The notes under the pieces: generated by a model
Seen by the model: the letters and a program-made list of their open reading frames with translations, nothing else
Databases searched by the model: none
What the model was told of the DNA's origin: nothing
NCBI GenBank assembly: GCA_023666615.1
Contig: JAMPBQ010000001.1
Location: 309,186 to 373,122, forward strand
Source of the DNA: Clostridium sp.
GTDB lineage: Bacteria; Bacteroidota; Bacteroidia; Bacteroidales; Muribaculaceae
Length of the DNA stretch: 63,937 nt
Reading direction: 5' to 3'
Position numbers and translations under genes: made by a program
Shown: in pieces, positions 4,894 to 55,988 of the stretch
How positions within the stretch are numbered: position 1 is the stretch's first letter
Layout: each line of letters starts with the position of its first letter

Positions 4894-5103
4894 ATGACAC
4901 AAATAACTCTGACCATTTCTAATCCGAGAGATGCCTCGTTGATAAAGAAGCTGTTGGCTAAATTTGACAGCGTCACTATTTCAAAATCTGCGCACAAGCG
5001 CAAGACAGGGCTCGATGAAGCTCTTGATGATGTTGCCGCAGGTAGAATTACAACCTACGATTCCGTAGACGACATGTTCACAAAATTAGGAATCGAATTA
5101 TGA
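4894..5103 (+). CDS. RelB/DinJ-type antitoxin
   Basis: A 69-residue protein with an N-terminal beta-strand (MTQITLTISN) and a helical C-terminus with TTYDSVDDMFTKLGIEL, the layout of RelB-family antitoxins that bind DNA as dimers and wrap the toxin with their C-terminal helix. Its stop codon overlaps the start of the next gene, which encodes a YafQ-type toxin, so the two are almost certainly co-translated. The family is recognised mainly from size, architecture and partner. By analogy it would repress its own promoter together with the toxin. Confidence 0.75.
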   Translation: MTQITLTISNPRDASLIKKLLAKFDSVTISKSAHKRKTGLDEALDDVAAGRITTYDSVDDMFTKLGIEL

Positions 5104-5384
5104 AATACACGATTCGAAACACTAAAAAGTTTGACAAGGACTTAAAAAGATGCGCAAAGAGAGGCTTGCCAATGAGATTGATTGCGGAAGCCCTAAAAAT
5201 CCTTGAGGCAACAGGGACACTGCCTAATGAGTATCGTCCGCACAAGCTAGTTGGGAAATATGCCGGCAAATGGGAATGTCATATTGATGGCCGCAACAGC
5301 GACTGGATTATGGTTTGGGAGCAGAACGAAACAGAACTTACGTTGCTTATGCTCCGTACAGGATCGCACTCTGACATCTTTTAA
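5100..5384 (+). CDS. YafQ-family mRNA-cleaving toxin
   Basis: A 94-residue RelE-superfamily ribosome-dependent ribonuclease. The active-site residues known from E. coli YafQ can be placed: His48 (YRPHKL), His61 (WECHIDG), Asp68 (SDWIMVW), His90 and the terminal Phe94 (RTGSHSDIF). All are intact, so the toxin should be active. It overlaps the antitoxin by four bases. The pair sits next to the tRNA-Arg repeat and outside the main island, in AT-richer DNA than lptD. Confidence 0.85.
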   Translation: MKYTIRNTKKFDKDLKRCAKRGLPMRLIAEALKILEATGTLPNEYRPHKLVGKYAGKWECHIDGRNSDWIMVWEQNETELTLLMLRTGSHSDIF

Positions 5385-5969: not shown

Positions 5970-6102
5970 CAGCAATTATGCAAACACAACAAACTATTTG
6001 GGCTAATTTTCAAATCTTCCCGCCGAAAATTAGCCTTTGGAATTTTTGATGGGCATTCTCGAAAATGCCAAAATAAAATTTGTGAATGTCATAAAAATAC
6101 CA

Positions 6103-6110
6103 TAATTTTG
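6103..6110 (+). promoter_or_regulatory. -7 box of structured RNA copy 1
   Basis: TAATTTTG, with TTG at 6080-6082. The 23-base distance between the TTG and the box start is the same as in copy 2. Confidence 0.65.
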
Positions 6111-6115
6111 CGTTG

Positions 6116-6420
6116 ACCTTACGCCGTGAGACTTCGCAAGAAGCCGGAGCGAGGGAGGTCATTACATAATGGAAAGCGTTTATTGGCGCTTTGTTCTTGA
6201 CAATTGAGAACCTGGAAAATTCTTAACGGAAAGCCAAGAATGAGGCAACAGTAGATGCCTTGGGTATGATAAATATCCCAAGGAGGATTGTATCTGCGGA
6301 TGCTTTCCCCTTTGGAGTATCATACGGCGTAGGCTCTGCGTGTTGCTCGTTCGACTTTCCGGGCAATTCCAGGGCCTTCAATTGTAGGACGAGCAACCAG
6401 TACGGATCCTGCGCTTTTTT
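6116..6420 (+). ncRNA. structured non-coding RNA, copy 1
   Basis: A ~305-nt transcription unit with its own promoter and a terminator-like end. Shared with copy 2 (53932-54247): AAGCGTTTAT (6174-6183) and GTAGATGCC (6251-6259) exactly 77 bases apart in both copies. Hairpin GGCTCTG/CAGGGCC (6332-6338/6370-6376) carries in its loop GTTGCTCG (6342-6349), which can pair with CGAGCAAC (6390-6397) in the loop of the terminal hairpin GTAGGA/TCCTGC (6384-6389/6407-6412), ahead of a T run. The sequences of these helices differ between copies but pairing is kept. I do not recognise the family; it is not RNase P, tmRNA or SRP RNA by their signature motifs. It lies directly upstream of the accessory operon beginning at 6474. 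Confidence 0.7.
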
Positions 6421-6473
6421 ATTGAATCAAAATTTTGCCCAGTTGGGGGTCTATGGGCATTGAAATTTTGCTA

Positions 6474-7280
6474 ATGGAAGAGACTAGAATAAAGTTTCCT
6501 ACATGGTTGGATAACTACATCTTCAATGAACTAAATGCCGATTATGTGAAATCTAAAAAGGATATGGTCGTCCTTGAATGGGGTAAGGATGACATTCTCA
6601 AGTATTTAGGAACGTACTTTCCAAGAAGTTACACCGAATCTTACTGTATTATTTCACAATACATTAAACAATCTAATTCTTTTTCAGGAAAAAATGAAAT
6701 TTCTTTGTTCGATTTTGGTTGTGGCACCGGAGGAGAGATTTTTGGTACATTAACCGCAATTATCGAACACTATCCCAACATACGCCAAATACGCATTTTC
6801 GCACTGGACGGAAATCATCACGCATTGCAAATATTTGAAAAGGTTTTGGAAAAGTACAAGGTTCAACATAAGAAAGACTTTCATTGTCAACTAATACCCA
6901 TTACAATTGATGATTTTTACGATTTGTCAATATTGGATCGAACACTGACGCGTAAATTTGACATTGTCCTATCTTTCAAAGCAATTTGTGAATTCGCGAC
7001 AAGAGGTAGATTTGAAAAAGACTACCCTTACGCTCATTTGGCAAAGTTCTTCCTCCCGAGAATGAATGGAAATGGAATACTTGTTCTATCTGACATTACA
7101 TCATTCAACGATACCTTTCAAAAATGGATCCCCAAAATGATGGATGATGGTTTATCAAAGGTTTGCTGTCAAATCGTGTCACAAAACGAAGGATACAATC
7201 AAACATTTTGCGTCACCCATTCAAAGAAAGATAATGATATCAGCAAAATAGCGTGGCGAATAGTTGTCAATAATTATTGA
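6474..7280 (+). CDS. SAM-dependent methyltransferase-like protein
   Basis: Class I (Rossmann) methyltransferase candidate, 268 residues. Motif I is DFGCGTGGE (residues 80-88), preceded by a beta-strand; a later FDIVLSFKAICEF and NGILVLSDI fit motifs IV/V. The target (DNA, RNA, protein or small molecule) cannot be read: there is no DPPY/NPPY or PC motif typical of DNA methylases. First gene of a four-gene run, 11 bases ahead of the helicase. Upstream ATGs at 6435 and 6453 lie too close to the RNA terminator; 6474 has an AT-rich leader like other genes here. The gene is AT-rich relative to lptD. Confidence 0.7.
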   Translation: MEETRIKFPTWLDNYIFNELNADYVKSKKDMVVLEWGKDDILKYLGTYFPRSYTESYCIISQYIKQSNSFSGKNEISLFDFGCGTGGEIFGTLTAIIEHYPNIRQIRIFALDGNHHALQIFEKVLEKYKVQHKKDFHCQLIPITIDDFYDLSILDRTLTRKFDIVLSFKAICEFATRGRFEKDYPYAHLAKFFLPRMNGNGILVLSDITSFNDTFQKWIPKMMDDGLSKVCCQIVSQNEGYNQTFCVTHSKKDNDISKIAWRIVVNNY

Positions 7281-7291
7281 AACACTAGCAT

Positions 7292-8341
7292 ATGGCAAAA
7301 GATTTTACAGTAAAAGAGTCTGAACTAGATGATATTCAGCAAAGAGTCCTTGATTTGACATTGGACAAATCATGCATTGTGACTGGATGTGCCGGAAGCG
7401 GCAAATCTGTCATTGCTTTGCATAAAGCAAAACGCATACAAAACGAAAGAGGCAACAATTATAAAATCATAGTATTCACTAAAGCTCTTTGTGACTATAT
7501 GAGAGGAGGCAAAGAGCAATTAGGGCTCACTCAACCATTTTATTACCACTGGCGTTGGCGAAATAGGCTAAACAAGCAAAAAGCTGACTACATAATAGTG
7601 GATGAAATCCAGGACTTCACAAAGGATGAAATCCAAGAATTTATCAACGCAACAAACAAAAATTTCTTTTTCTTTGGAGATACGGGTCAAACCATATACG
7701 ATGGATTAAAGGAAACACTGCCGGTTGAACAAATTCGATCAATGTCTCCTTCCTCAAAGGAATTTCCGCTTTATTACAATTATCGACTTCCTAAACCTGT
7801 GGCAAAAATTACACAAGACTATATAGGAGTTGATGTAGATCATTATGGGGATGGTAGCGTTTACATGAGCATAGAAAACAAAATTCCTTTTATCTTGCGG
7901 TACGCCAATCTTGAAGAACAAATCAAGGCTATCTCGCGCATAATCAAACAAGATACATTGACAGATGTAGGCATATTGCTCCCAAACAATGATAATGTTT
8001 TAAATGTTAGCGCGCTTTTAAACCGAGAGGGTATAAACCATGAAGTTCGCTACAATGATTCAAACAACTGGACACAGAGCAAGGATACATTAGACTTTTC
8101 AACTTCTAATCCCAAATTAATGACATATCATAGCTCCAAAGGGCTTCAGTTTGAGACCGTATTTCTCCCTAACGTGATAGGCGCGATTAATGATACCGCA
8201 AAAAAAACCTTATACGTGGCAATGACAAGGACGTACAGGTATCTTTATATCATGTACAGTGGTAATCTCCCCGCTCCTTTGTCAGAAGTGCCCAAATCCC
8301 TTTATCTAGACACAGAATCACAAAAGTTAAACGATTTATAA
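7292..8341 (+). CDS. compact SF1 (UvrD/Rep-type) helicase
   Basis: A 349-residue ATPase with the superfamily 1 motif set: Walker A GCAGSGKS (Lys38), Walker B YIIVDEIQD (Asp104-Glu105), motif III FFFGDTGQTIYD, motif IV NYRLP, motif V YHSSKGLQFETV and motif VI YVAMTRTYRYLYI. It is half the length of UvrD, lacking most 1B/2B insertions, so it resembles the small SF1 ATPases found in accessory and defence gene sets. It could translocate on DNA or act as a nucleic-acid sensor. It is separated from the next gene by a single base, so the products probably work together. Confidence 0.85.
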   Translation: MAKDFTVKESELDDIQQRVLDLTLDKSCIVTGCAGSGKSVIALHKAKRIQNERGNNYKIIVFTKALCDYMRGGKEQLGLTQPFYYHWRWRNRLNKQKADYIIVDEIQDFTKDEIQEFINATNKNFFFFGDTGQTIYDGLKETLPVEQIRSMSPSSKEFPLYYNYRLPKPVAKITQDYIGVDVDHYGDGSVYMSIENKIPFILRYANLEEQIKAISRIIKQDTLTDVGILLPNNDNVLNVSALLNREGINHEVRYNDSNNWTQSKDTLDFSTSNPKLMTYHSSKGLQFETVFLPNVIGAINDTAKKTLYVAMTRTYRYLYIMYSGNLPAPLSEVPKSLYLDTESQKLNDL

Positions 8342-8342
8342 A

Positions 8343-10490
8343 ATGAAAACTCTCTATATACCTACTACTACTCTCAACTTCAATAACATAATGTCAAGCG
8401 AGAGCATTTCGCCCAAAGCATTTTATGCTGTTAGGGGATTTGGATATAGAACTTGGCATCTAATAAATGAAAATCCTTACGATAACAGCATTCTTTTTTA
8501 TGAAGAAATGCCAAAAGTGGTTCGACAAGAAAGTGATTACGATGACTACCCTATGGTCATAGCTATATCTGTATCTGACGAATTGCTCAACAAACTGTCA
8601 CGTACCGTTGTTGATGGTGTTTACCAATATTCAGGGACGGTTTACTTGAATCCATTTAATACGGCTTTCATTTTTGATGCAAAAGAGCGCAAACAAATCG
8701 CCTTGTCTAAATCAGAAAGCAGCGCTGAATCAAAGATGGTAAGTCTTTACCAATATCAAATGAAATGCGCTGAATCTTTCTGTTCGTATGACATTTCTTT
8801 ATGTAAAGATCTTGCCTTTAACCGTGAGGCTATGCAAAAGGATCAGCGAATAAATAAAATCAAGGGATTTCTTTATGGTTATTATGTAGGCGCAGCCTTA
8901 TCAATGTCTCCAGCTGACGTTGAGAAGCTTAATATTTTATACAATATAAAAAACGTCATTGCCGCAATTATATCCAGCATCAACGGCGGCACAAAAGAGC
9001 ATTATGAACAAATAGACAAATATTTCTCTCTTCTAAAGAAATTTGATCCTGTTAGAGCCGAAATATATAAATTGATTGAAGCAAATACTTTGTCCACACA
9101 AGAAAAAGTCGATTTAATTTTCTCAAGACTGGAGAATTACAAGGACAATATATCCACTGCGATTCCGTTCATAATTAAAGAAGCACAAAAAAGAACGTCG
9201 GGAAATGGAGATAATCAAGCAATGCTTTGGATTAACAAACAGATAGAGAACAATCGTCTCAAATCTAAGACGCATCCATCCTTATTGTCTATTGACAATA
9301 AGGAAGTCATCATATCCAACCTTGAATTGTCCGTCATTAACAATAACTTTATACAAAAAGAAATTGCAAAAAAGGTATTCCTATCCATTGTCAATGACAT
9401 ATTGGCTTCCAATAAATACAATGGAAAAATCAGCACATTCCAATTAGAGCTTGCAACTGAAATCACAATTCGGGCTAAGGAAATTTATGGTGACGCATGG
9501 AATGACACATGTCGTACGCGAGCATACTTAAATGCATTGCGTAGACATATAGCTGGTGAGGCCTTCAATTACGCATGGGATTCCGGCGTTTTAAGTTCTG
9601 TGGCGGCCGTCATCCTTAAAGGCGATGACTGGGAGAAACTTCTTGGATTTTTGCAGGTGAAAAATTTGGCTGATTACCGAATTGCCTTTGCTTTATATGG
9701 CGAGCTTAACGGGTTCGCAAACCTCACGCGAGATTTCACAGATATTCTTCTTATGAATGAAGATAGTTATGTGTATGATATACTAAGGAACTTCTTCTAT
9801 CAAATCCATGGTGAAGAATTAAAGAACATCAATGTTTCCAATCTTAAAATTGTCCGAAAATCACAGCAAGCGAGTGTGTTCCCAACGGCGAAAACGCCAA
9901 CGATTGAAAAAACACCAATCTCGTCGGCTACGCCCACTCTTTTTGAACGGTTTTTGGCATTCCTAAAAAAATCTTTAAATCCACGAACAACAATTTTCAA
10001 AGAAATAAAGAAAAACTATCAAGGGCAAATAGTTGAAGTAAGTGATCTAAATGATTTAGTTAATGGGGTGCTGGACAATAATAAAAATAGACCCGACCAA
10101 TGCGAAAAAGCAAAGCAGGCCTTAGAACAGTTCAACAAGGAATATGCTGCAGAAAATGCAGTAGGCGAGGCTGTTGCGGCATCTCTAAAATTCATCTTTG
10201 ACAAAGACGCTTCAAAACTGGTGATGAATTCTAATATACTTCCCTGTGAACTAAAAGAATCAATGATTAAAGATTTAGTTTATATTCAAAGAGAATATGA
10301 ACCAGGTGGAAGGCATGAGGCGCAAGATCATGCTAATTGGCAGACGATAAAACATTTTATAAATCTTAGCAGAAAAAATCTAAAACGACAAAGAATTTAT
10401 TTGGAAAGTTACGAGGTCGTTTTAGAAGATTTTAAAAAATATTTAGATCAACATTATGGTGTCGACAGAAAAGATGCCAATTATCACTGA
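8343..10490 (+). CDS. large uncharacterised protein of the helicase operon
   Basis: A 715-residue protein I do not recognise. The start MKTLYIPTTTLNFNN leads into a beta-rich N-terminal part (about 1-130) with AFYAVRGFGYRTWH, followed by a mostly helical middle (150-500), a Pro/Ser/Thr linker near 515-540 and a helical, charged C-terminus. No signal peptide, membrane segment, nuclease or nucleotide-binding motif is visible. The gene begins one base after the helicase stop and its end overlaps the DUF1848 gene, which argues for coupled translation and a shared function. By position it could be the effector or scaffold of the set; that is inference. Confidence 0.7.
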   Translation: MKTLYIPTTTLNFNNIMSSESISPKAFYAVRGFGYRTWHLINENPYDNSILFYEEMPKVVRQESDYDDYPMVIAISVSDELLNKLSRTVVDGVYQYSGTVYLNPFNTAFIFDAKERKQIALSKSESSAESKMVSLYQYQMKCAESFCSYDISLCKDLAFNREAMQKDQRINKIKGFLYGYYVGAALSMSPADVEKLNILYNIKNVIAAIISSINGGTKEHYEQIDKYFSLLKKFDPVRAEIYKLIEANTLSTQEKVDLIFSRLENYKDNISTAIPFIIKEAQKRTSGNGDNQAMLWINKQIENNRLKSKTHPSLLSIDNKEVIISNLELSVINNNFIQKEIAKKVFLSIVNDILASNKYNGKISTFQLELATEITIRAKEIYGDAWNDTCRTRAYLNALRRHIAGEAFNYAWDSGVLSSVAAVILKGDDWEKLLGFLQVKNLADYRIAFALYGELNGFANLTRDFTDILLMNEDSYVYDILRNFFYQIHGEELKNINVSNLKIVRKSQQASVFPTAKTPTIEKTPISSATPTLFERFLAFLKKSLNPRTTIFKEIKKNYQGQIVEVSDLNDLVNGVLDNNKNRPDQCEKAKQALEQFNKEYAAENAVGEAVAASLKFIFDKDASKLVMNSNILPCELKESMIKDLVYIQREYEPGGRHEAQDHANWQTIKHFINLSRKNLKRQRIYLESYEVVLEDFKKYLDQHYGVDRKDANYH

Positions 10491-11511
10491 TAATGGTGAA
10501 AGGGTTGAGGTGATTGCGCCTGTCGTCATATCGGCTAGCCGCTCAACCGATATACCCGCCTTCTATGCCAAATGGTTTTTCAATCGTTTGGCGAAAGGAT
10601 ATTGTGTATGGATAAATCCTTTTAACCAACTGAAGCAATACGTATCTTTCGTAAATTGTAAGGTAATTGTCTTTTGGACTAAGAATCCATCCCCGATAAT
10701 TCCATACCTACACATCTTGAATGAAATGGGCATACACTATTATTTTCAAGTTACACTTAACGATTATGTTAAAGAGAGGCTTGAGCCCAACTTGCCGTCT
10801 CTTGAAAAGCGGATTGAAACTTTCAAAAAACTTTCATCTGTTGTCGGTCCGGATAGAGTAATCTGGAGATTTGACCCCATCTTAATTTGTCCTGAAATAT
10901 CCCCAAGAATCATTCTGTCAAAGATTTGGCGTATAGGCAATCAATTAGAGGGCTCTACAAAAAAATTTGTATTTAGCTTCGTTGATATAAAGGCTTATCG
11001 TAAGGTCCGGAATAATCTTGTTAAGGAAACGAGGTTGTTTAATATAGACAATGTTGACAAGGGAGAAGGAGATGAATTTCAACGAATGGAAATTATTGAA
11101 GGTCTAGTTAAGATTCGTGATATCTGGAAACAAAGAGGCTGGGATTTGGCGCTTGCCACGTGTGCTGAATCCGTTGATTTAGAAGAATATGGGATTGAGC
11201 ATAATAGATGTATTGATGAGCGACTAATGGAAAAAATTTTTGCTGACGACAAGGAGTTGGTTTATTATCTGCGGACAGGCAAACTTGTTCAGCCCAACCT
11301 ATTTGGTGAAATGCCCGATTTGCCAGAAACCTATAGAAACCTCAGGGATAGGGGTCAGCGGAAACTTTGCGGATGTATGATTAGCAAAGATATCGGCATG
11401 TATAACACTTGTCGACATTTTTGTGCGTACTGCTACGCGAATACAAGCAAAAAGATTGTGATTGAAAATGAAGCTAAACACTTTGATGAAAGTGAAAGCT
11501 TAATTAATTAG
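10474..11511 (+). CDS. DUF1848 protein with C-terminal CX3CX2C cluster
   Basis: A 345-residue DUF1848-family protein (ISASRSTDIPAFY, VFWTKNP and VIWRFDPI are family hallmarks). Near the C-terminus lie Cys299 and Cys301, then Cys313-x3-Cys317-x2-Cys320 (CRHFCAYCYA). CX3CX2C is the spacing used by radical SAM enzymes to hold a 4Fe-4S cluster, although here it is at the C-terminal end. The substrate is unknown. It overlaps the 715-residue gene by 17 bases from this ATG; an ATG at 10456 would give a 35-base overlap. It ends the first operon of the island; a 111-base gap follows. Confidence 0.75.
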   Translation: MPIITDNGERVEVIAPVVISASRSTDIPAFYAKWFFNRLAKGYCVWINPFNQLKQYVSFVNCKVIVFWTKNPSPIIPYLHILNEMGIHYYFQVTLNDYVKERLEPNLPSLEKRIETFKKLSSVVGPDRVIWRFDPILICPEISPRIILSKIWRIGNQLEGSTKKFVFSFVDIKAYRKVRNNLVKETRLFNIDNVDKGEGDEFQRMEIIEGLVKIRDIWKQRGWDLALATCAESVDLEEYGIEHNRCIDERLMEKIFADDKELVYYLRTGKLVQPNLFGEMPDLPETYRNLRDRGQRKLCGCMISKDIGMYNTCRHFCAYCYANTSKKIVIENEAKHFDESESLIN

Positions 11512-53802: not shown

Positions 53803-53918
53803 GGCCTTCCCCTGAGGAGGAGTGAGGAGAATAGCCGTTGCACTTCTTATTGGAAACTTTGCGTTTAAAAAAAATTCAATATTTTCCAATAAGGGTTGTG
53901 CATGTAAAAATAAAGCTG

Positions 53919-53926
53919 TAACTTTG
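53919..53926 (+). promoter_or_regulatory. -7 box of structured RNA copy 2
   Basis: TAACTTTG, with TTG at 53896-53898, the same 23-base spacing as in copy 1. Confidence 0.65.
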
Positions 53927-53931
53927 TGGGT

Positions 53932-54247
53932 GAAGACCGTCACCGCAGAAGCCCCGGTATGGGACAATGCGGGTGGGCGGCAGACATACTAATAAGCGTT
54001 TATCCGCGCTGATTCTTGGCTGCTTGAAATTCTCGCAAAATTTCGTGTCAAAGTCAGGGATTGAGCAACGGTAGATGCCCGTGGATATGTAAACAATGCA
54101 TTTGGGCGCTGTCTCGTGAGAGATGACGCTGAGTGATATGGTTGCATATACGAGCGTGGGCTTCTGCGTTGCCGTCCGACTTTGACAGGGCAATGCGAGA
54201 AGCCTCAAGCAGTAGGATGGCAACCGATACAGATTCCTACGCTTTTT
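53932..54247 (+). ncRNA. structured non-coding RNA, copy 2
   Basis: A ~316-nt relative of 6116-6420. AAGCGTTTAT (53994-54003) and GTAGATGCC (54071-54079) are again 77 bases apart. Hairpin GGCTTCT/AGAAGCC (54159-54165/54198-54204) holds GTTGCCGTCC (54168-54177), which can pair with GGATGGCAAC (54215-54224) in the terminal hairpin GTAGGA/TCCTAC (54212-54217/54235-54240), followed by five T. Several paired positions differ from copy 1 on both strands of the helix, so pairing is conserved. GTTGCC can also pair locally with GGCAAT, as in copy 1, which would make the two folds exclusive. It precedes the secreted unknown gene at 54324. Confidence 0.7.
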
Positions 54248-54323: not shown

Positions 54324-55988
54324 ATGAGAAAAATCATTTCAATCATTTTTGTGGCGTTAGTCTTTAACGTTGCCTGTGGTCTTAACAAAGACTCAATATA
54401 CCCATTTAACGAGAATGGGTTATGGGGCCTAAAAATTAATGGGGAGGTATGTTTGCTTCCCGGATTTGACAATCTTGAAAAAGTATTTGACATCAATTTG
54501 TTCATATATACACAAAATGGACGAAAAGGAATAATTTCGCCCTTCGGTGTAGTCTTTTCAGAAGAGCAAGCCGATTCTATCATTTCAGTGGGCACACAAA
54601 TAATCCGATTTATAAAAGACTCAAAAAACTACGCAGCTTTTATTGATGATAAAAACGGAATAGTTGGTAAACCTTTCCGATTGGACTCAATTAATTTTTG
54701 GGGCGACAGATTGATTACATATACAGTAGATGATACTCAGGGTGTCCGCCTCATAGGAGATACGGTCGACATAATTGTTCCCGGGCAATATAAGAAAATA
54801 ATAGGTGGGTGGGAGTTTATGCCCATGGAAGAACATGTGTATGGAGCATATTTCAAAGAATCTTATATTATAGCAGAGGATAATCAAAATGAGATCCACA
54901 TATTTGATACATATTATAAAAAAGAAGATGTCTCACCTTTTTTCTCTTTTTCCAACTTGGGAGGCAATTCAAAAAAGGTGGCTGAAGGGAAGGAGCCTCT
55001 TGAAAAATTATGGATTAAAACTGAGTCTTGGAAAATTAGAGACAAAATTGATAAAGAATATCGTAAATCAGCCAAGAATAACGGACCAAAAGGAGTAAAT
55101 ACCGGGTGGGGAAATTTTTCCTCAAAAGGTAAAAGCCTTTCTGTTGACTCTATTAAAGATGAAGATATAATGGATCAAATAGCAATAGGGGATTATAATG
55201 GTGTTATCACTTCATTTGGGACTATAACTATTCCCATAAAGTATAATTCAACTGGTGATTTAAAAAAACGCGACCCGTCAAATCCATATTCAATATATTT
55301 TGAAGTATCCGAACAGATGTCTGCAGATAAGCCTAAGCGTCACGATAGACCTTGGATACACTTTCCGAACTCAGATGTTGATTTTGAGATTTCCAGGAAA
55401 GAATATGCAGAAAAGACGCAGTATTACAAAGAGTACCTCGCAGTGTGGGAAATGTTGTATGACTATATAAAGGAAATCGGAATGGAGGACGATCCTATTT
55501 ATAAAGAAGTGGCGAAAGATGTATCTAAATGCAGAGACTTATACGATGAGAATGAAAGAAAATTGGATAGTTACAATCGTATTGCATCAATAACCAATTC
55601 GCTTAACTCTTTTGCCAATAATCTTTATAATATTGCGTCAAGCATGCAATCAGGCTCCTACAATTTGAATTCTTATAATTCTTATAATTCCTCCTCTATT
55701 CCCGCCTCCAACACAAATGGGGGCAAGGATTATCAAGGTGAATACAATCGATGGGCGCAAAGGGCTGAAGCTAACTATAATTCCATAACAAGATATTCAA
55801 ATACAAATAAAGCGGGAAAGAAAACATCTGGCAGCGCGGCTGGGAGTTCGTCTCCGGCTACTTACTCTCAGCAGAAAAAATCATATCGAACCGCACAGCA
55901 TGAGATGGCGCGCATAGCGCGTGAAGCCTCTAATGCAGGGGTGTCAATTGTGAGATCGGAATACGAGATGCTTACAATATCATACTGA
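54324..55988 (+). CDS. secreted protein of unknown function
   Basis: A 554-residue protein with a signal peptide or lipoprotein-like N-terminus (IIFVALVFNVACG, Cys18). The first 150 residues carry WG-type repeats (NENGLWGLKINGE, TQNGRKGIISPFG), then a beta-rich middle, a helical region (about 350-430) and a Ser/Asn-rich low-complexity stretch (SYNLNSYNSYNSSS) ahead of a basic helical C-terminus (RTAQHEMARIAREASN). No catalytic motif is seen. It is AT-rich, isolated between the structured RNA and a strong terminator, and is probably acquired. Confidence 0.6.
   Translation: MRKIISIIFVALVFNVACGLNKDSIYPFNENGLWGLKINGEVCLLPGFDNLEKVFDINLFIYTQNGRKGIISPFGVVFSEEQADSIISVGTQIIRFIKDSKNYAAFIDDKNGIVGKPFRLDSINFWGDRLITYTVDDTQGVRLIGDTVDIIVPGQYKKIIGGWEFMPMEEHVYGAYFKESYIIAEDNQNEIHIFDTYYKKEDVSPFFSFSNLGGNSKKVAEGKEPLEKLWIKTESWKIRDKIDKEYRKSAKNNGPKGVNTGWGNFSSKGKSLSVDSIKDEDIMDQIAIGDYNGVITSFGTITIPIKYNSTGDLKKRDPSNPYSIYFEVSEQMSADKPKRHDRPWIHFPNSDVDFEISRKEYAEKTQYYKEYLAVWEMLYDYIKEIGMEDDPIYKEVAKDVSKCRDLYDENERKLDSYNRIASITNSLNSFANNLYNIASSMQSGSYNLNSYNSYNSSSIPASNTNGGKDYQGEYNRWAQRAEANYNSITRYSNTNKAGKKTSGSAAGSSSPATYSQQKKSYRTAQHEMARIAREASNAGVSIVRSEYEMLTISY

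Follow-up and report, generated by a model that had tools for sequence, protein, structure and literature searches.

The window, by which we mean the whole 63,937-nucleotide stretch of DNA analysed here, contains two diverged copies of a segment of about 310 nt, and the question raised by this locus is what these copies are and what they do for the genes beside them. They had been taken, in the original prediction, for a structured RNA in two copies, of no recognised family, with helices kept by paired changes. By direct reading we located all the features on which this was based (Table 1): the word TANNTTTG with a TTG starting 23 bases earlier in each copy, the words AAGCGTTTAT (at 6174 and 53994) and GTAGATGCC (at 6251 and 54071) exactly 77 bases apart in both, the quoted helix strands at 6342-6352/6387-6397 in copy 1 and 54168-54177/54215-54224 in copy 2, GTAGGA/TCCTGC at 6384-6389/6407-6412 in copy 1 with GTAGGA/TCCTAC in copy 2, and the helices GGCTCTG/CAGGGCC and GGCTTCT/AGAAGCC. 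Both copies also fold well below dinucleotide shuffles (z of -5.96 for copy 1 and -4.93 for copy 2, with 0 of 100 shuffles as low), which supports a structured RNA.

We searched the whole window against Rfam 15 at the gathering threshold and obtained three tRNAs and no family for either RNA copy; each copy searched separately at E<=10 gave rows far below the gathering scores only, and 19 of 30 related loci of the order yielded one tRNA and nothing else. The Rfam covariance models therefore assigned the RNA to no existing family, whether in the window, the single copies or these 19 loci, and it can still be called unrecognised on this ground. Bacteroidales-1 (RF01693), Bacteroides-1 (RF01694) and 6S-flavo (RF01685) are structured RNAs of Bacteroidetes according to the available part of PMC2864571, and none of the three was matched at the gathering threshold in the window or in the 19 loci; the same two sets gave no match to JUMPstart or epsC/EAR. 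Outside subscription papers and preprints, which lay beyond the search, no title or abstract opening described this RNA. To our knowledge, few cis-regulatory RNA classes have been described in this gut-bacterial group.

The RNA is not confined to two copies. Using nucleotide and pattern searches together with a covariance model (R1) built from 39 sequences (alignment A2), whose E-values are rough, we found 16 copies above 90 bits in the window genome (2.87 Mb, an assembly of 91 contigs), of which one is partial and lies at a contig start, and therefore dropped the two-sequence reading. The scan with R1 gave 31 rows at E<=1; of the 15 weak rows beyond the 16 copies, 14 overlap copies on the opposite strand and 1 lies beside a copy. 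RNAalifold on alignment A2, made with MAFFT, gave a poor consensus of 36 pairs, and R1 was for this reason used solely as a search model. Two contigs of the window genome (C26 and C30) have RNA copies at their starts, which suggests that the repeated leader breaks assemblies and that the real copy number may exceed our count.

Homologues were found with models seeded from the window copies, and the window genome is included in each of the four genome tallies for family, genus, order and phylum. Copy 2 matches 101 of the 149 genomes of its own taxonomic family (E<=1e-4), in 23 of 30 genera. Of the 31 genomes of the genus, 28 match R1 at E<=1e-4; the rows per genome run from 0 to 18, the maximum being that of the window genome, where 2 of the 18 are weak opposite-strand rows; the number of RNA copies per genome in the genus is 0 to about 16. 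Across the order, 49 of 247 genomes match at E<=0.01, several via weak short rows alone, and in a sample of the phylum, searched with stricter filters, the 1 match among 296 genomes is the window genome itself. Relatives beyond the two original copies are thus found in the family and in the wider order. A pattern scan of named genomes matched at least 119 stretches; the matches listed (80 of at least 119) include Paraprevotella clara, P. xylaniphila, Phocaeicola oris, Duncaniella muris (DSM 103720), Xylanibacter rodentium, Barnesiella sp. WM24, Heminiphilus faecis, a Paludibacteraceae MAG and Prevotella-titled records. Three matching MAGs titled Clostridia, Clostridiales or Pseudoflavonifractor are presumably mixed bins. 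On contig C12 of genome G692 (L300, 1121-6321), three leader copies lie inside about 5 kb, with same-strand ORF starts about 46, 267 and 117 nt past the model match. Short variants of 161-162 nt occur in other Bacteroidales families (L174, 1501-1661; L175, 1502-1663, minus strand; L176, 383-543, minus strand); their middle is shorter, but they retain the core words, the U-run, a purine word that follows it and an ORF whose start is signal-like.

The surroundings of the copies bear on whether the RNA stands alone. The 249 loci gave 231 distinct copies with a 3' end, 222 of which have at least 350 nt behind them. A same-strand ORF of at least 60 aa starts no more than 100 nt from the RNA 3' end in 173 of these 222 copies; in 6 of them the distance is no more than 30 nt, and 103 copies form a sharp peak at 50-70 nt. 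The ORF starts farther away in 45 copies and is missing in 4. As a control, which does not match ordinary same-strand promoters, divergent upstream ORFs were counted, and 24 of 159 start within 100 nt. Because a same-strand gene sits close behind it, the RNA is, judged by position, the 5' leader of that gene rather than a free-standing RNA.

TANNTTTG is present at the model start in 150 of the 154 copies that reach the first 8 model positions (shuffled mean 0.93, maximum 5), a count that is favoured by the way these copies were selected, since the model itself begins with that word, and that leaves 77 of the 231 copies unjudged. In 218 of the 231 copies, 5 or more of the 8 nt that follow CGC are T, with 3' ends placed, among the CG[CT] sites near the model end, at the site followed by most T, a rule that favours this count; even so, 13 of the 231 have no good T run. 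Beyond the T run, a further (tail) hairpin is present in many of the copies; its stem varies, and it closes on a purine loop (GAGRGGA or GGGGARUY). Under a strict 4-bp rule it was detected in 96 of 161 leaders (letter-shuffled mean 21.6, maximum 31), and the purine word alone in 115 of the 161 (shuffled mean 28.2, maximum 43). The tail hairpin ends a median of 17 nt (quartiles 13 and 21) 5' of the start codon, and it probably adds a translational or protein-binding step. Copy 1 has such a hairpin; behind the U-run of copy 2 none was recognisable.

Table 1. Positions of the two leader copies, their pairing strands and the genes behind them in the window.
Feature	Position	Strand	Basis
Copy 1, promoter-like words TTG (6080) and TAATTTTG (6103-6110)	6080-6110	+	sequence
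Copy 1, leader RNA, 5' domain and core to U-run end	6111-6420	+	1 of the genome's 16 copies
Copy 1, P1 5' strand AAAGC, can pair with 6413-6417 (GCTTT)	6173-6177	+	sequence; columns canonical 0.966 (93 copies)
Copy 1, PA 5' strand, pairs with 6378-6384	6201-6207	+	covarying columns 104-108/292-296
Copy 1, PB 5' strand CGGAAAG, pairs with 6355-6361 (CTTTCCG)	6227-6233	+	covarying columns 131-135/266-270
Copy 1, strand U (GCAAC), upstream partner of S in the global state	6245-6249	+	U-S columns canonical 0.985
Copy 1, ATGCC, upstream partner of GGCGT (6326-6330) in the global state	6255-6259	+	columns 158-161/239-242, 95-98% canonical
Copy 1, strand G (GCGTAGG), can pair with ATGCC or 6408-6414 (CCTGCGC)	6327-6333	+	pairing counts
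Copy 1, strand S (GTTGCTCGTTC), can pair with U or D	6342-6352	+	column pairing and folds
Copy 1, strand D (GGACGAGCAAC), downstream partner of S	6387-6397	+	S-D columns canonical 0.986
Copy 1, CCTGCGC then TTTTTT, terminator-like hairpin arm adjoining the U-run	6408-6420	+	T-content count
Copy 1, tail hairpin GCCCA-(GTTGGGGGTCTA)-TGGGC, 5' of the start codon judged at 6474	6437-6458	+	purine-loop hairpin count
Copy 1, first operon gene, methyltransferase-like	6474-7280	+	Pfam below curated cut-offs; in-frame ATG at 6453 also possible
Copy 2, promoter-like words TTG (53896) and TAACTTTG (53919-53926)	53896-53926	+	sequence
Copy 2, leader RNA to U-run end	53927-54247	+	nucleotide and model searches
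Copy 2, 5' domain GCAGAAGCC, can pair with 54159-54167 (GGCTTCTGC)	53945-53953	+	columns 25-33/244-252 canonical 0.933 (judged in 60-73 of 93 copies)
Copy 2, PA 5' strand CTGCTTGA, pairs with 54205-54212	54020-54027	+	covariation
Copy 2, PB 5' strand TGTCAAAGTC, pairs with 54178-54187	54046-54055	+	covariation
Copy 2, strands G (54154-54160) and S (54168-54177)	54154-54177	+	column pairing and folds
Copy 2, strand D (54215-54224), CCTACGC (54236-54242) and U-run (54243-54247)	54215-54247	+	column pairing and folds
Copy 2, gene after the leader, 554 aa with lipoprotein-like signal (MRKIISIIFVALVFNVACG), without Pfam family	54324-55988	+	Pfam scan

RNAalifold gave a long nested fold for the 93 full-length copies. 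Covariation was assessed with our own script, not R-scape, using a G-test with APC and an exponential tail fit, against a null in which Fitch-derived substitutions were re-placed on a FastTree tree. With 93 sequences, 10 column pairs reached E<=0.05, every one of them in helix PA (columns 104-108/292-296, E 5.5e-7 to 1.1e-2) or PB (columns 131-135/266-270, E 6.5e-8 to 1.3e-2); they are 96-100% canonical, and 9 of the 10 contain all four Watson-Crick types. With 205 sequences, 10 pairs were significant; the 9 that reach 80% canonical pairing or more comprise five in PA, three in PA2, which lies beside PA, and one in PB. Covariation beyond the tree-based null was therefore detected; the helices first quoted as covarying are present, but the strongest signal falls in PA and PB, two long-range helices that were not among them. 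The helices formed by G, S, U, D and P1 vary too little for pair-by-pair significance in the 93 copies. As a whole, the counted helices other than PA and PB are 92-99% canonical but too invariant, or too weakly covarying, to be significant, and their best pairs are 299/323 (E 0.7), 87/311 (E 1.1) and 86/312 (E 1.4). The ten helices counted hold 323 G-U cells and 69 A-C cells on the plus strand, an excess that would fit this strand working as RNA, with 34 to 29 in hairpin H alone (columns 297-302/320-325), a rival use of the 3' arm that shows some covariation (pair 299/323). A 5' hairpin CAGACCG/CGGUCUG seen by eye was poor in the alignment (columns 14-20/35-41, 53-93% canonical) and was discarded. 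By eye, the 5' domain (model columns 9-75) is of two types, one with GCAGAAGCC, complementary to GGCUUCUGC, and a longer one in which CACGCC is complementary to GGCGUG; either type could dock onto one shared inner region.

Conserved partners exist both upstream and downstream for each of two strands of the core, G (GCGURRG) and S (GUUGCC...). In what we call the global state, U (GCAAC) is the partner of S and AUGCC that of G, both helices being nested within PA and PB; AAAGC can in addition pair with GCUUU over the point where the U-run begins. The local state crosses PA and PB: here the partner of S is D (GGACGGCAAC), and that of G is the CYYACGC that directly adjoins the U-run. The GTTGCTCG/CGAGCAAC helix of the original prediction is conserved and belongs to the local 3' hairpin state, but it is one among several pairings, and the global state uses others. 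G and CYYACGC are paired at 7 of 7 positions in 219 of 227 copies (mean 205.5 and maximum 212 over 2000 permutations), and GAG is matched by CTC in this arm in 12 of 12 copies. Of the 223 copies that could be used, 8 of the 231 having no anchor, 194 show an unbroken 10-base pairing of S with D, a count made without a shuffled control and with a lenient upstream search. Since the G/CYYACGC helix adjoins the U-run, the sequence has the layout of an intrinsic terminator; the hairpin is composite, with a long loop enclosed.

Compared without a shuffled control, minimum-energy folds of the 93 whole cores contained at least 70% of the global pairs in 84 copies and the local pairs in 4, and those of the isolated 3' segments contained at least 70% of the local pairs in 86; as such a segment lacks the upstream partners, its fold is evidence that the local hairpin can form, not that it prevails. 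With each state forced, the mean energy difference was 1.0 kcal/mol and the global state was lower in 50 of 93 copies, by 11 kcal/mol in copy 1 and by 0.3 in copy 2. In prefix folding, most global pairs (0.83 in copy 1 and 0.73 in copy 2) were formed before D was made. In silico, the helices are thus mutually exclusive in the manner of an expression platform. A competition between folds had been proposed through the pairing of GTTGC with GGCAAT. This pairing is conserved (columns 253-258/274-279, 95-100% canonical) and folds do compete, but the hairpin built on this pairing has the lowest energy in 0 of the 93 whole cores and in 4 of the 93 3' segments folded alone, and we rejected it as the main rival fold. 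Four short-variant loci were inspected (L173-L176), and three of them, L174-L176, show by eye the swap of partners kept with other letters: in place of S they have UCUUAUUU or UCUUGUUU, and the letters of U (AAAUAAGA) and of D (GGAUAAG or AAAUAAG) differ as well. As read from the sequences, this three-way change is beyond what a single static helix explains.

The reading we prefer, and which we judge an even call, is that the cis-acting 5' leader attenuates transcription of the gene or operon behind it. While RNA polymerase passes, the global fold (PA, PB, S-U, G-AUGCC and P1 over the start of the U-run) would form and hold away the hairpin arm next to the U-run, and transcription would read on. 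Where the global fold is missed or undone, G and S would pair downstream and form the composite hairpin, with 7 bp beside the U-run and about 10 bp above, as an intrinsic terminator. A trigger, be it a small molecule, a protein or a physiological state, would set the balance and could so impose one signal over some 16 scattered loci. As to which state is ON, our guess is that read-through would be the default and the terminator the alternative, which fits the prefix folds in that these reach most global pairs before D. The leader, a family without Rfam 15 match, would then act like an attenuator or a riboswitch expression platform. It has in common with such leaders the 5' position, the mutually exclusive helices, the U-run after a hairpin and the many loci per genome; c-di-GMP leaders are an example of a riboswitch leader used at many loci. 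It differs from them in a cargo without common pathway, in its length of about 250-310 nt, in having no Rfam match and in the extra hairpin before the start codon of many copies. Given an incoherent gene set, we do not claim a riboswitch class.

We examined the cargo in 145 proteins left after distance, length and duplicate filters, of which the 129 of at most 700 aa were scanned; they were chosen from earlier 3' ends (a later rule altered 58 of 231) as the longest nearby ORF, and a few may not be the first gene. The cargo is mixed and comprises secreted proteins, lipoproteins, BspA-LRR proteins and some defence genes. Pfam identified 69 families among the 129 proteins, the largest in the best 25 of 69 being the BspA-type LRR_5 (21 of 129), and 103 PADLOC families were matched, the best 25 of which have 1-2 members each, for instance DndC and type III methyltransferases. 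A crude rule of our own found a signal-like N-terminus in 113 of 166 cargo proteins, compared with a fraction of 0.370 of 422 other ORFs taken from the window and loci L177-L256. No coherent regulated gene set pointing to a ligand was found among the 129 proteins and their 69 Pfam families, and with a cargo so mixed no ligand suggests itself.

The methyltransferase-like gene behind copy 1 is followed by genes for an SF1 helicase (7292-8341), a 715-aa protein without Pfam family (8343-10490) and a DUF1848 protein (10456-11511) that we take to be radical-SAM-like; this operon (6474-11511) is possibly an undescribed defence or repair system. In a genome of another taxonomic family (L301), the same RNA (91 bits) precedes homologues of all four genes in the same order, plus one extra gene before DUF1848, with identities of 49, 58, 38 and 69% over 262, 343, 506 and 176 residues, the last alignment ending at the end of the stretch. 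Over all copies, 75 have a partner with homologous cargo, and in 10 of these such a partner is the nearest RNA neighbour, with 3.6 expected; the link between cargo and RNA type thus appears weak in general, and for copy 1 the leader and operon seem to have been kept as a unit between taxonomic families. A further RNA copy in the window genome (L305, 3-3276, minus strand) lies before a 606-aa gene and a helicase-like gene, which by eye look like a type III restriction-modification pair. In L049 (1423-4088, minus strand), a lipoprotein gene behind the leader is followed by a small TAT-like peptide and a radical-SAM maturase-like gene, a set that we assume to be akin to a modified-peptide cluster. 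Two small overlapping genes at 4894-5384 of the window, seen in sequence only, presumably resemble a YafQ/RelE-type toxin-antitoxin pair.

Other explanations of the leader have to be weighed against attenuation. It may act post-transcriptionally, with a fold that protects the mRNA or a tail hairpin that controls ribosome entry, and with an incidental U-run. The frequency of the purine-loop tail hairpin (96/161) and its median distance of 17 nt from the start codon point this way, as do the similar purine words that we saw by eye behind the U-run of the three short relatives; yet neither the layout from promoter to U-run nor a 3' arm that adjoins the U-run and has a second partner set is explained, and we consider this unlikely. 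The surface bias of the cargo (113/166 signal-like, against 0.370 of other ORFs) bears instead on processive antitermination, in which the leader would load a NusG-paralogue factor, or act on RNA polymerase itself, and let foreign accessory genes escape termination. Such a bias recalls the targets of RfaH/UpxY, and the known antitermination leader elements, put RNA, EAR (epsC, RF01735) and JUMPstart/ops with RfaH or UpxY, likewise serve accessory surface operons. With no Rfam match to JUMPstart or epsC/EAR in the window or the 19 loci, antitermination seems to us decidedly unlikely.

A promoter-like word together with a terminator-like end could also mark independent trans-acting sRNAs whose 3' ends are at the U-run and which owe their place in front of genes to an accident of insertion. 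Multicopy sRNA families do exist in Bacteroides: the FopS sRNAs of the order Bacteroidales, in the available part of PMC11697453, have 14 paralogues per genome with their own promoters, consist of a single-stranded 5' stretch and a terminator, act in trans and were deposited in Rfam. Multiple copies, an own promoter and the Bacteroidales are common to both as far as FopS is described there, but our RNA is large and folded, and we rejected membership in FopS because the architecture of copies of about 310 nt with long-range helices differs and, as far as release 15 includes FopS, there was no Rfam hit. The same-strand ORF mostly at 50-70 nt, the conservation of the leader with four operon genes in L301 and the hairpin beyond the U-run make an insertion accident quite improbable. 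We hardly credit a DNA element such as a recombination site or cassette end: the three copies within 5 kb in L300, the 0 to about 16 copies within one genus and the weak co-inheritance of RNA and cargo (10/75 against 3.6) would suit it, but the plus-strand excess of G-U over A-C (323 to 69, even if 34 to 29 in hairpin H) and the promoter-like word in front speak for RNA, and copy 2 has no match in plasmid or phage collections. A phage or plasmid mobile element was rejected on the same searches, copy 2 being unmatched in both collections; one IMG/VR contig does match a pattern.

Returning to the attenuating leader, it is possible, though we think it doubtful, that it forms a Bacteroidales-wide global switch RNA through which one physiological signal, perhaps stress or infection, sets a scattered accessory arsenal; equally doubtful is that surface proteins, lipoproteins and defence operons alike would be served in this way, with cargo freely exchanged behind a constant leader. 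If the attenuation reading is right, one large RNA class would govern a sizeable accessory gene set in abundant gut bacteria, and common control over unrelated acquired genes would be explained. The leader would then also serve to flag accessory and defence operons that have no known name, and would offer a clear three-strand switch for bench study.
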